A DNA stretch of 64,000 nt from NCBI GenBank assembly GCA_902577425.1, contig CACGZD010000002.1, forward strand, positions 1 through 64,000, read 5' to 3'. Positions 21,123-58,060 of this stretch are shown piece by piece. Position numbers and translations under genes: made by a program. The first letter of the stretch is position 1, and each line of letters starts with the position of its first letter. This stretch comes from an uncultured Alphaproteobacteria bacterium. Lineage in GTDB: Bacteria > Pseudomonadota > Alphaproteobacteria > HIMB59 > GCA-002718135. The notes beneath the pieces are model-generated. The model searched no databases. It worked only from the letters and a program-made list of their open reading frames with translations, and was not told where the DNA came from.

Positions 21123-21183
21123 TAAGGATAATAAAAAAATTTGTTCTATATATGTTCTTATTAAATATTAAAGATTAAATAAA

Positions 21184-21527
21184 AGATGGTGCATAAGCCG
21201 GGTTCTGTAAATTTAATTAAAAATCTGATGATCATTAATCTAGAACAAATGTCACCATTTGTCTCAAGCAGCCTACCCGAGTAACTTTACTGGAATATAG
21301 CATTACTCCTATTTGGCCTTGCTCCTAAAAGGGTTTTCAATGCCAATATTGTTACCAATATTGCGGTAAGCTCTTACCTCACCTTTTCACCCTTACCTAA
21401 ATTCATAGGCGGTTTTTTTTCTGTTGCACTTTCCCTAAGCTTTCACTTGCCAGGTGTTACCTGGTTTTATTTTCCAGTGGAGCCCGGACTTTCCTCTTGA
21501 TAAATCAAGCGATCATCGCACCATCTC
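21184..21527 (-). ncRNA. rnpB: RNase P RNA, bacterial type A
   Basis: Minus strand GATGGTGCGATGATCGC...GAGGAAAGTCCGGGCTCC at the 5' end; ACAGAACCCGGCTTATGCACCATC at the 3' end; complementary ends form P1. Confidence 0.95.
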
Positions 21528-21551
21528 AACATGACTGATAAAACAAAAAGT

Positions 21552-52931: not shown

Positions 52932-54637
52932 TGAAAAAAATTAGTAGAGATGCTTATGCTGATATGTATGGACCAACAACTGGTGATAAAATTAGATTAG
53001 CTGACACAGAACTTTTTATAGAAGTTGAAAAAGACCTTACAACTTATGGAGAAGAAGTTAAATTTGGAGGAGGCAAGGTTATAAGAGATGGTATGGGTCA
53101 ATCACAAGTCTCAAGAAAAGATGGAGCAGTTGATACAATTATAACAAACGCTTTAGTAGTTGATGTAAATGGAATTTATAAAGCAGATATTGGTCTAAAA
53201 GATGGTTTAATAAATGAGATAGGCAAAGCAGGTAATCCTGACACACAACCAAATGTAAATATTATTATAGGTCCTGGTACTGAGATAATTGCTGGAGAAG
53301 GAAAGATTATTACAGCTGGCGGTTTTGATAGTCATATACATTTTATTTGCCCTCAGCAAATTGATGATTCTTTGCACTCTGGTATCACAACTATGTTAGG
53401 AGGTGGAACAGGACCAGCTCATGGAACTTTAGCAACAACTGTTACTCCTGGTCCATGGCATTTAGAAAAAATGATTCAATCAGCAGATGCCTTTTCAATG
53501 AATTTAGCTTTTGCTGGCAAAGGTAATAGTTCTCTGCCTTCCGCACTTGAAGAGCAGGTAATTGCAGGAGCAAGTTCCCTTAAATTACATGAAGATTGGG
53601 GCACAACTCCTGCTGCAATCGATAATTGTTTAAATGTTGCTGACAAATATGACATTCAAGTGATGATACATACTGATACATTAAACGAAAGTGGCTTTGT
53701 CGAAAGTACTATTAAAGCAATTAATGGAAGAACTATTCATGCCTTCCATACTGAGGGAGCTGGTGGAGGACATGCGCCAGATATTATTAAAGTATGTGGA
53801 GAAAAATATGTTATTCCTTCTTCAACTAATCCTACCAGACCTTATACAATTAATACAGTTGAAGAACATTTAGACATGCTCATGGTATGTCACCATCTTG
53901 ACAAATCTATTCCTGAAGATGTTGCTTTTGCTGAAAGTCGTATTCGAAAAGAAACGATTGCTGCAGAAGATATTCTTCATGACATGGGTGCATTCTCAAT
54001 TATTGCTTCAGATAGTCAGGCTATGGGTCGTGTAGGTGAGGTTATAATTAGAACATGGCAAACAGCCCATAAAATGAAAGTACAACGAGGACAGTTAAAA
54101 GAAGAAAATGGGGATAATGATAATGTAAGAGTAAAAAGATATATAGCTAAATATACTATCAATCCTGCTATAGCTCATGGAATATCTGAAAATATTGGAA
54201 CGATTGAAAAAAATAAACGAGCTGATATTGTAATTTGGGATCCAGCATTTTTTGGAGTAAAGCCTGAAATTATCTTGATGGGTGGAAGTATTGCATGTGC
54301 TCAAATGGGCGACCCTAATGCATCAATACCGACTCCCCAGCCAGTGTATTCAAGACCAATGTTTTCTTCTTTTGGAAAATCTCTTGAAAAATCTTCCGTA
54401 ACATTTGTAAGTCAAATATCTCTTGATAGAGATATACATAAGAATTCAGGCATTAATAAATCATTATTGCCAGTTAAGAATATTAGAAATATTTCAAAAA
54501 AAGATATGATATTAAATAATTATTGTCCACAAATAGAAGTAAACCCTGAAACTTATGAAGTTTTAGCTGATGGAGAACTAATAACATGCGAACCTGCTAA
54601 AACCCTACCTTTGGCACAACGTTACTTTATGTATTAA
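52931..54637 (+). CDS. ureC: Urease alpha subunit
   Basis: [43 protein letters not shown] (carbamylated Lys), MVCHHL. Confidence 0.98.
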
Positions 54638-55722: not shown

Positions 55723-56330
55723 ATAATATTAATGGACCGCTAAAAGTTGGTATAGGTGGGGGAATCGGAACAGGTAAAACTAGTCTGACAGAAGCACTCT
55801 GTCGTCATTTATCCAAAAAAATATCTATGGCAGTTATTTCAAATGATATTTACACTATAGAAGATGCTGAATATTTAATGAAAGCCCAAGTGCTCCCTAT
55901 GGAAAGAATTAAAGGAGTAGAAACTGGAGGATGCCCTCATACAGCTATTAGAGAAGATTGTTCTATTAATTTACTAGCTGTAGATGAAATGATAAAAAAA
56001 TTTCCTGATCTTGAACTAATATTAATTGAGTCTGGAGGAGATAATTTAGCAGCGACATTTAGTCCTGAATTGGTCGACTTAACAATTTATATGATTGATG
56101 TTGCAATGGGAGCAGATATTCCCAGAAAGAAAGCTCCAGCAATTAAAAAATCTGATTTATTAATAATTAATAAAATAGATTTAGCTCCATATGTTGAGGT
56201 AAATTTAGATCAAATGAAAATTGATGTTGAAAAAGCTAGAAATGGCTTACCATATATTTTTGGTGAAATGAAAAAAAACAACGGTATTGATAAGATTTCT
56301 GAGTTTATAATTTCTCATGGTGGATTATAA
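55719..56330 (+). CDS. ureG: Urease accessory GTPase UreG
   Basis: [52 protein letters not shown]. Confidence 0.97.
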
Positions 56331-56340
56331 TTTTAATATG

Positions 56341-56415
56341 TGGTGGGTGCGACAGGGATTGAACCTGTGACCCCTGCCGTGTCGAGGCAGTGCTCTACCG
56401 CTGAGCTACGCACCC
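56341..56415 (-). tRNA. tRNA-Val (anticodon GAC)
   Basis: Minus strand GGGTGCGTAGCTCAGCGGTAGAGCACTGCCTCGACACGGCAGGGGTCACAGGTTCAATCCCTGTCGCACCCACCA; closed cloverleaf, encoded CCA. Confidence 0.93.
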
Positions 56416-56551
56416 TAATGGTTTATATGATATATCTAATTCAATATTAAAAGTCCTTAGTAATATTTAAGTTTTATTACAATTAATAAAAAATAATAAA
56501 TTATTTATTTTCCTCTTGAATAATTAAATTTTTTATAATAAAAACTTTTTT

Positions 56552-56614
56552 AATCGTTCATCTTTAAAAATTTATTTTTAAGGACGGAAGTAGACGAAAG
56601 TCGAAGGAACGCAT
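56552..56614 (+). ncRNA. glnA-type (glutamine-I) riboswitch aptamer, copy 1
   Basis: ATCGTTCA-[TCTTTAAAA/TTTTAAGGA stem]-CGGAAGTAGA-CGAAAG-TCGAAGGAACGC; outer CGTTC/GAACG pairing. Confidence 0.88.
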
Positions 56615-56627
56615 GCAAAGTTATAAA

Positions 56628-56689
56628 ATCGTTCAATTCTCATTAATTTTGAGAATCGGAAGTAGGTTTATACCGAAGGAACGCGGATC
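56628..56689 (+). ncRNA. glnA-type (glutamine-I) riboswitch aptamer, copy 2
   Basis: ATCGTTCA-[ATTCTCA/TGAGAAT stem]-CGGAAGTAGG-TTTAT-ACCGAAGGAACGCGGAT; same core with compensatory stem changes. Confidence 0.9.
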
Positions 56690-56702
56690 TTATTATTATA
56701 AT

Positions 56703-56772
56703 TTCCATAGCTACGCATGAAAAGTAACACATAACTAGTGGTTAGTTATGTTTAGTGAACTTTATTATGGAG
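56703..56772 (+). promoter_or_regulatory. Putative expression platform: anti-SD TTCCATA (56703-56709) versus SD TATGGAG (56766-56772), with hairpin CATAACTA/TAGTTATG between
   Basis: Direct complementarity between the segment just 3' of aptamer 2 and the amt ribosome-binding site. Confidence 0.55.
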
Positions 56773-56779
56773 AATAATA

Positions 56780-58060
56780 ATGAATAAATTTTCTTTTTTT
56801 GGTTTATTTATAGGCTCTACTTTACTATCTTCATCTGCTTTTGCAGCAGTTGATCCAGAAGTTTCCTATATTTTAAACACTCTCTTATTTTTGATAGGAG
56901 GTTTTTTAGTAATGTGGATGGCAGCTGGTTTTGCCATGCTAGAATCAGGATTAGTTACATCCAAAAGTGTTGCTACAATAGCTGCAAAAAATATAGGCTT
57001 ATATTCTATTGCTGGAATAATGTTTTGGTTTATTGGATATAACTTAGCATACGGTATCCCTGAAGGAGGGTTTATTGGTACTTTTCTTCCTTGGAGTGAT
57101 GCAAGCTCAATAGAAACAGGATATTCAGATGGTTCTGACTGGTTTTTCCAAATGGTTTTTTGCGCAACAACCTGTTCTATTGTTTCTGGAACAATGGCAG
57201 AAAGAATTAAAATTTGGCCATTCTTTTTATTCTGTGCAATCTTAGCTGGCATTATTTACCCAATTGAAATGGGATGGCAATGGGGTGGAGGTCATCTTGC
57301 AGCTGCTGGTTTTTCTGACTTTGCTGGCTCAACATTAGTTCATAGTGCTGGAGGTGCTGCAGCTCTTGCAGGAGCAATACTTCTTGGCCCAAGACTTGGG
57401 AGATTTACTGAAACAGGTGATGCGAAAGCAATGGCACCTTTTGCTAGTTCCTCAATACCTTTGGCAACTTTAGGAGTATTTATTTTATGGTTAGGTTGGT
57501 TTGGTTTTAATGGTGGATCACAGTTAGCTTTAGGATCGTTCGATGATTCAACTTCTGTAGCTACTATTTTTATAAATACTAACTTAGCTGCTTGTGCAGG
57601 TGTAATGGTTTGTGCAGGTGTTTCTAGACTCGTAGGTGGCAAAACAGATGTTATAATGATGCTTAATGGTGCATTAGGTGGACTTGTAGCTATAACTGCT
57701 GAGCCTCTTACACCTTCGCCTATTATGGCAATCATCATTGGTGGTATTGGTGGACTGGTTGTCTATTACGGCACTTTATTATTAATAAAACTTAAAATAG
57801 ATGATGTGGTTGGAGCTATTCCAGTTCATGGATTTGCTGGTATTTGGGGCACATTAGCTGTTCCTCTTACAAATTCAGGAGCAAATTTTGGTTCTCAAAT
57901 TTATGGTATCCTTTGGATTAATATTTTTGTTTTCATTATTGCATTTATTGTTTGGTATTTAATGAAAATTTCTATGGGTATTAGAATTAGTGAAGAAGCT
58001 GAAAAACTTGGTACTGATAAAGCTGAAGTAGGCGTAATGGCATACTCTATTAGAGATTAG
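56780..58060 (+). CDS. amtB: Ammonium transporter (Amt/MEP/Rh family)
   Basis: Signal peptide-like N-terminus; ESGLVTSKSVATIAAKN; STLVHSAGGAAALAGAILLGPRLGRF; GWFGFNGGSQLALG; IPVHGFAGIWGTLAVPL. Confidence 0.96.
   Translation: MNKFSFFGLFIGSTLLSSSAFAAVDPEVSYILNTLLFLIGGFLVMWMAAGFAMLESGLVTSKSVATIAAKNIGLYSIAGIMFWFIGYNLAYGIPEGGFIGTFLPWSDASSIETGYSDGSDWFFQMVFCATTCSIVSGTMAERIKIWPFFLFCAILAGIIYPIEMGWQWGGGHLAAAGFSDFAGSTLVHSAGGAAALAGAILLGPRLGRFTETGDAKAMAPFASSSIPLATLGVFILWLGWFGFNGGSQLALGSFDDSTSVATIFINTNLAACAGVMVCAGVSRLVGGKTDVIMMLNGALGGLVAITAEPLTPSPIMAIIIGGIGGLVVYYGTLLLIKLKIDDVVGAIPVHGFAGIWGTLAVPLTNSGANFGSQIYGILWINIFVFIIAFIVWYLMKISMGIRISEEAEKLGTDKAEVGVMAYSIRD

Follow-up and report, generated by a model that had tools for sequence, protein, structure and literature searches.

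The leader of an ammonium transporter gene, amt, in an uncultured marine alphaproteobacterium carries two glutamine-I riboswitch aptamers in tandem, which probably control translation of amt through a single shared platform that turns the gene off when glutamine is bound. The platform consists of the linker between the two aptamers (L) and a strand 3' of aptamer 2 (D), which can pair either with L or with the ribosome-binding site (RBS). The identity of the aptamers is near certain and a two-state L/D platform is likely; by reasoning from these we infer the OFF direction, the alternation of the L:D and D:RBS helices in the cell, and the role of aptamer 2 with any cooperativity.

The aptamers themselves are not new. 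A 2010 report (PMC2864571) described the class, its tandem copies and, in marine environmental sequences, its amt, GS and PII neighbours; PMC6316151 gives the neighbouring nitrogen genes as limited to environmental sequences that come from uncultured strains. Because this association was known, an alphaproteobacterial host was partly foreseen. In 2022, 157 tandem doublets were counted and called pseudo-cooperative (PMC9481103). No earlier description was found of the linker-D platform, or of the loss of GlnD in riboswitch-bearing relatives reported below; most subscription literature lay beyond the search, and an earlier description of either is possible. In the literature found, the platforms of tandem glutamine riboswitches have not been worked out, and the one review to assign them to a class regards each aptamer as an independent unit.

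Two glutamine-I aptamers before amt

The window, a stretch of 64,000 nt, was searched in full with cmscan against Rfam 15. Exactly two matches to the glutamine-I model RF01739 (gathering score 35 bits) were returned, both on the + strand. The features of the locus are as follows.

56341-56415, opposite strand: tRNA-Val, between the urease genes and the amt leader
56534-56539, + strand: TATAAT, a possible -10 box read from the sequence (weak, no matching -35)
56553-56615, + strand: glutamine-I aptamer 1 (RF01739, 64.0 bits, E 7.5e-12)
56555-56559 and 56607-56611, + strand: P1 strands of aptamer 1, CGUUC and GAACG, from the RF01739 match
56628-56687, + strand: glutamine-I aptamer 2 (RF01739, 62.9 bits, E 1.5e-11)
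56630-56634 and 56679-56683, + strand: P1 strands of aptamer 2, CGUUC and GAACG, from the RF01739 match
56684, + strand: C60 of aptamer 2
56780-58060, + strand: amt, ammonium transporter of 426 aa (PF00909, E 1.1e-98)

An earlier note on this DNA, made from the sequence alone, had proposed tandem glnA-type aptamers and named a search with the Rfam model as the check; the two + strand matches above the gathering score bear this out. As it had also observed, the variable stems of the two copies differ in sequence and still pair, both in the long arm (TCTTTAAAA/TTTTAAGGA versus ATTCTCA/TGAGAAT, among the P2/P3 stems) and in the short arm (GAC-GAAA-GTC versus GGT-TTAT-ACC). Both copies carry CGUUC, CGGAAG and GAACG-C, and with them the ligand-contact and linchpin nucleotides C1, G22, G23, G59 and C60, whose roles in the glutamine-I aptamer are established (PMC11477058, PMC6698751). 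C60 is invariant in both aptamers of 159/159 tandem leaders. On the strength of their Rfam scores, the conservation of ligand-contact nucleotides, the genes around them and the relatives, both elements are near-certain glutamine-I aptamers, and the same evidence supports the alphaproteobacterial placement suggested before.

The two matches are 12 nt apart, with 18 nt between the P1 helices, and the tandem ends 92 nt 5' of the ATG of amt, the downstream gene that PF00909 confirms as the transporter the note had named. Three further aptamers occur in the same genome, two in tandem before glnA, within the glnB-glnA gap, and one on its own before a second amt; the aptamers thus stand in 5' leaders of nitrogen-metabolism genes here and elsewhere in the genome. 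Urease genes do lie upstream, as the earlier note had it, and end at 56330, but amt is not part of that operon, since the tRNA-Val gene intervenes on the opposite strand. A Rfam match to 5_ureB_sRNA (53088-53361, - strand, 94 bits) is antisense within the urease alpha-subunit gene and may be no more than a conserved part of the urease coding sequence, scored from the other strand. The window also contains an ordinary bacterial RNase P class A RNA (21178-21528, - strand, 302.8 bits).

The TATAAT at 56534-56539 would place the transcript start just 5' of aptamer 1, a weak possibility read from the bases themselves; the promoter scan gave no -35 to match it. No terminator-like site was found within 56420-56900, and a transcription-terminating riboswitch was dropped on this ground.

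The linker, element D and the ribosome-binding site

The remaining features of the leader lie between and behind the aptamers.

56612-56629, + strand: linker L, CAUGCAAAGUUAUAAAAU, conserved and complementary to D in 159/159 tandem leaders
56700-56719, + strand: element D, AAUUUCCAUAGCUACGCAUG, defined by L:D and D:RBS duplex energies, MFE and RNAalifold
56729-56751, + strand: spacer hairpin, ACAUAACUA / UAGUUAUGU, an inverted repeat between D and the RBS
56766-56773, + strand: Shine-Dalgarno region, UAUGGAGA (GGAG at 56769-56772), complementary to D

L and D were compared across 159 distinct L-type tandem leaders, namely 70 before amt, 50 before glnA, 32 before CP-ATP-grasp genes (Pfam PF14403) and 7 not assigned by the script. 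These leaders are related and so are not independent observations, and the argument for L:D is one of conserved complementarity. L is 16-19 nt long and reads CAUGCAAAGUUAUWAAAU in amt leaders and CAUGCAAAAGUUAUAAAU in glnA leaders. Its first nucleotide, 56612 in the window, is C60 of aptamer 1, the base directly after GAACG, and in 159/159 leaders C60 opens L and takes part in L:D. D reads AAUUUCCAUAGCUANGCAUG in amt leaders and GAUUUCAUAACUAGAGCAUG in glnA leaders. Pairing between the two strands is retained in 159/159 leaders, before amt, glnA and CP-ATP-grasp genes alike, and all 66 distinct L/D combinations form the helix CAUGC:GCAUG plus AGUUAU:AUARCU or a near variant of it. The internal loop is characteristic of the gene class (2x2 for amt, 3x3 for glnA and, in the majority of CP-ATP-grasp leaders, 1x2), and with variants such as CGUGC, AGUUUGAAA and AGUUAGAAA the helix is retained or becomes longer.

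The L:D duplex has an energy of about -11 kcal/mol, compared with about -5 in shuffled leaders; in 100 shuffles of a leader, fewer than 0.5 on average match it. In the window it reaches -11.2 kcal/mol, through D positions 56707-56712 and 56715-56719, and is present in the unconstrained MFE structure of the leader. L and D were not seen in single-aptamer leaders, and no common platform was recognised in the single-aptamer leaders of the second amt.

The other partner of D depends on the gene, being the Shine-Dalgarno sequence in amt and the start codon in glnA. In the window, 56702-56709 pair with the RBS at -9.0 kcal/mol, a value that 3.8% of 53 window ORFs equal in their start regions. RNAalifold, applied to the D-to-start stretch of 14 divergent amt leaders, returned a UUUCCAU:AUGGAG helix around the spacer hairpin with 93.2% of cells paired, versus 41-50% when slid. 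The spacer hairpin covaries strongly among amt leaders, both sides changing in 6/8 pairs; the D:RBS pairs are mostly invariant among the 14. Across the leaders, D:RBS is only modestly better than pairing with shuffled RBS windows. L and D being nearly invariant, two-sided covariation is scarce for both L:D and D:RBS. The UUUCAUA in the D of glnA leaders forms pairs with a UAUGAAA at the start codon, and the sole glnA leader with an amt-like D (L009) carries the matching UAUGGAGG. Weak D:RBS pairing is seen in a single amt leader (L100) and in the CP-ATP-grasp leaders. The core shared by the two helices is short, the AUA of D at 56707-56709, and by sharing it L:D and D:RBS compete.

In the MFE structure of the window leader, a TGAAC 5' of the amt RBS pairs with a P1 strand; it is not kept in other genera and was dropped. 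The CP-ATP-grasp leaders carry L and D together with a short upstream ORF that ends at or near the gene start, and seem to act on this ORF.

A proposed glutamine-OFF switch and its alternatives

Structural work on the glutamine-I aptamer found G22 and G23 disordered in the free RNA; ligand brings G23 into P1, where it pairs with C60 (PMC11477058, PMC5393176; PMC6698751 was compared for the ligand-induced G23-C60 pairing). C60 is also the first base of L and takes part in L:D, so L:D and the glutamine-bound aptamer 1 compete for it. At low glutamine, L would pair with D, the RBS would stay free and the transporter would be made. Binding of glutamine to aptamer 1 would let G23 capture C60, which would weaken L:D and release D; the freed D would then pair with the RBS and stop amt translation. 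In glnA of the same genome the same platform would place D onto the start codon.

A folding model in which both aptamers were folded and both C60s barred from pairing elsewhere agrees with this order of events. When C60 was denied to the amt leaders, the expected pairs of L:D fell from 10.1 to 5.6 and those of D:RBS rose from 0.6 to 3.8; the glnA leaders lean towards D:RBS in this model already when C60 is left free. The competition for C60 and this shift from L:D to D:RBS together underlie the proposal that glutamine frees D and the RBS is covered, a mode of control that suits amt and glnA.

A C60-anchored helix is also found in phages. Of the 108 distinct glutamine-I leaders taken from IMG/VR, 84 show a helix that starts exactly at C60 and spans 4 pairs or more (mean length 5.0, versus 2.9 in shuffled leaders), and 77 of the 84 helices include or adjoin a Shine-Dalgarno sequence close to the start codon. 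The arms vary together, as in CACCU/GGGUG, CACUC/GAGUG, CACUUU/GAAGUG and CAUCUUUCUUU/GAAGGAGGGUG. Competition for C60 in these leaders predicts an ON switch. This prediction agrees with the ON behaviour given for the cyanobacterial glutamine riboswitches in published reports (PMC6316151, PMC6698751), with which the comparison was made. With D interposed, the same C60 logic gives OFF in the tandem leaders.

The same platform could work with the opposite sign: glutamine would stabilise the flanking P1 helices, L:D would stack on them and strengthen, and the freed RBS would turn amt on. The sequence makes coaxial stacking conceivable, as L abuts both P1 helices, and the cyanobacterial switches that have been studied are ON switches (PMC6316151). 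C60, however, is unable to pair with G23 and D simultaneously, and ammonium uptake and glutamine synthetase switched on by glutamine would make little physiological sense, which leaves this reading rather unlikely. A tandem of two separate glutamine switches acting one after the other, each on a platform of its own, would correspond to the pseudo-cooperative class into which the 157 doublets were placed (PMC9481103). The more digital response that the earlier note suggested for the tandem form is commonly imagined in this way. In the window's family, however, just 16-19 nt separate the P1 helices, with no terminator or RBS there, and this stretch pairs with D, beyond aptamer 2. The 18-nt linker of the window leaves no room for two serial switches and belongs to one platform instead. 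For amt and glnA leaders, a second platform that would serve aptamer 2 and start from the C60 of that aptamer was considered and rejected because the pairing does not exceed that of shuffles; in CP-ATP-grasp leaders a candidate pairing of this kind, CGGAUCUU:AAGGUUUG, occurs and is rich in G-U. The window tandem thus does not have one platform per aptamer, and serial switches appear quite improbable.

L and D might also be conserved for another reason, as a static scaffold or as a protein or sRNA site, and not switch at all. Both strands are near-invariant and their pairing is unproved by compensatory change, as such a role would have it. Against it, the complementarity survives the variants that exist and is found before three kinds of gene, and the complementarity of D to the RBS is gene-specific as well; we give this explanation very little credence. 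The shared glutamine-OFF platform remains the preferred reading and proposes a conserved, testable two-state switch for an ocean lineage, in which the inter-aptamer linker would be a working strand. In it, the ligand-induced G23-C60 pair of the crystal structure is connected with an expression platform, and the wiring of a single aptamer for either ON or OFF finds a simple explanation.

Distribution, nitrogen sensors and known systems

Within an order sample, RF01739 matches occurred in 96/150 genomes, every one from the family to which the window belongs. The listed genomes include just two of this family without a match (G004, G112) and none of the sister family with one. In a class sample of 387 genomes, matches were confined to two genomes of the window's family and four of one other alphaproteobacterial family, in which single aptamers precede a CP-ATP-grasp-like gene. 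The circularly permuted ATP-grasp gene type (PF14403 in L077) is a recurrent target of glutamine riboswitches in two alphaproteobacterial families (L233-L236; L012, L015, L024).

Other contigs carry further arrangements. In three SAR86-like contigs (L107, L115, L157) a run of three consecutive glutamine-I aptamers precedes the gene of a small exported protein (MKK..SYASVSANVSFASDYIWRGMTQTG). The related L121, L125, L153 and L176 have doublets with a different linker able to form its own hairpin, before a gene that looks like glutamine synthetase. Tandem aptamers occur in the IMG/VR viral contigs L218-L232, several with a linker CAUUGUAAAA complementary to an ACAAUG start region. The amt tandem leader of L168, recorded as Chloroflexi bacterium RS659, is near-identical to those of the alphaproteobacterial family, and the contig is probably misbinned.

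Nitrogen status is normally sensed by GlnD. In searches whose positive controls included E. coli and Caulobacter, GlnD (PF08335) was found in 0/27 genomes of the window's family versus 18/18 of the sister family, and GlnE (PF03710) in 0/27 versus 16/18. The genomes of the window's family are 67-96% complete, so that absence is weak in any single genome and not weak across all. This distribution mirrors that of the riboswitch and counts as a single evolutionary contrast rather than as several independent observations. It suggests that RNA replaced a protein nutrient sensor in the riboswitch-bearing family. The sigma-54 factor RpoN (PF04552) was not found in any of the 45 genomes of both families, and a sigma-54/NtrC explanation was set aside for this reason, PF00158 matches alone not being decisive. 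Tentatively, in this streamlined marine family a linker-wired, sign-inverted, glutamine-OFF tandem may have taken over the nitrogen sensing of GlnD to control ammonium uptake and glutamine synthetase, with the C60 strand allowing ON in phages and OFF here.

The window tandem shares aptamer sequence, fold, tandem form and position before amt and glnA with the glutamine-I class RF01739 and its tandem marine copies (PMC2864571); it differs in that its host is placed in one alphaproteobacterial family and in the linker-D-RBS platform described here. As in the phage glutamine-I leaders (IMG/VR; PMC9004378), a C60-anchored helix feeds the expression platform, but the phage helix usually covers the Shine-Dalgarno sequence (predicted ON), whereas here it holds an anti-RBS strand (predicted OFF). 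The cyanobacterial glutamine riboswitches that have been studied are ON switches, in contrast to the predicted OFF of the window tandem. The glycine riboswitch has two similar aptamers close together and one platform. In the glutamine tandem one platform is seen, to which aptamer 2 shows no evident coupling, and one strand of this platform is the inter-aptamer linker, whose partner is on the far side of aptamer 2.
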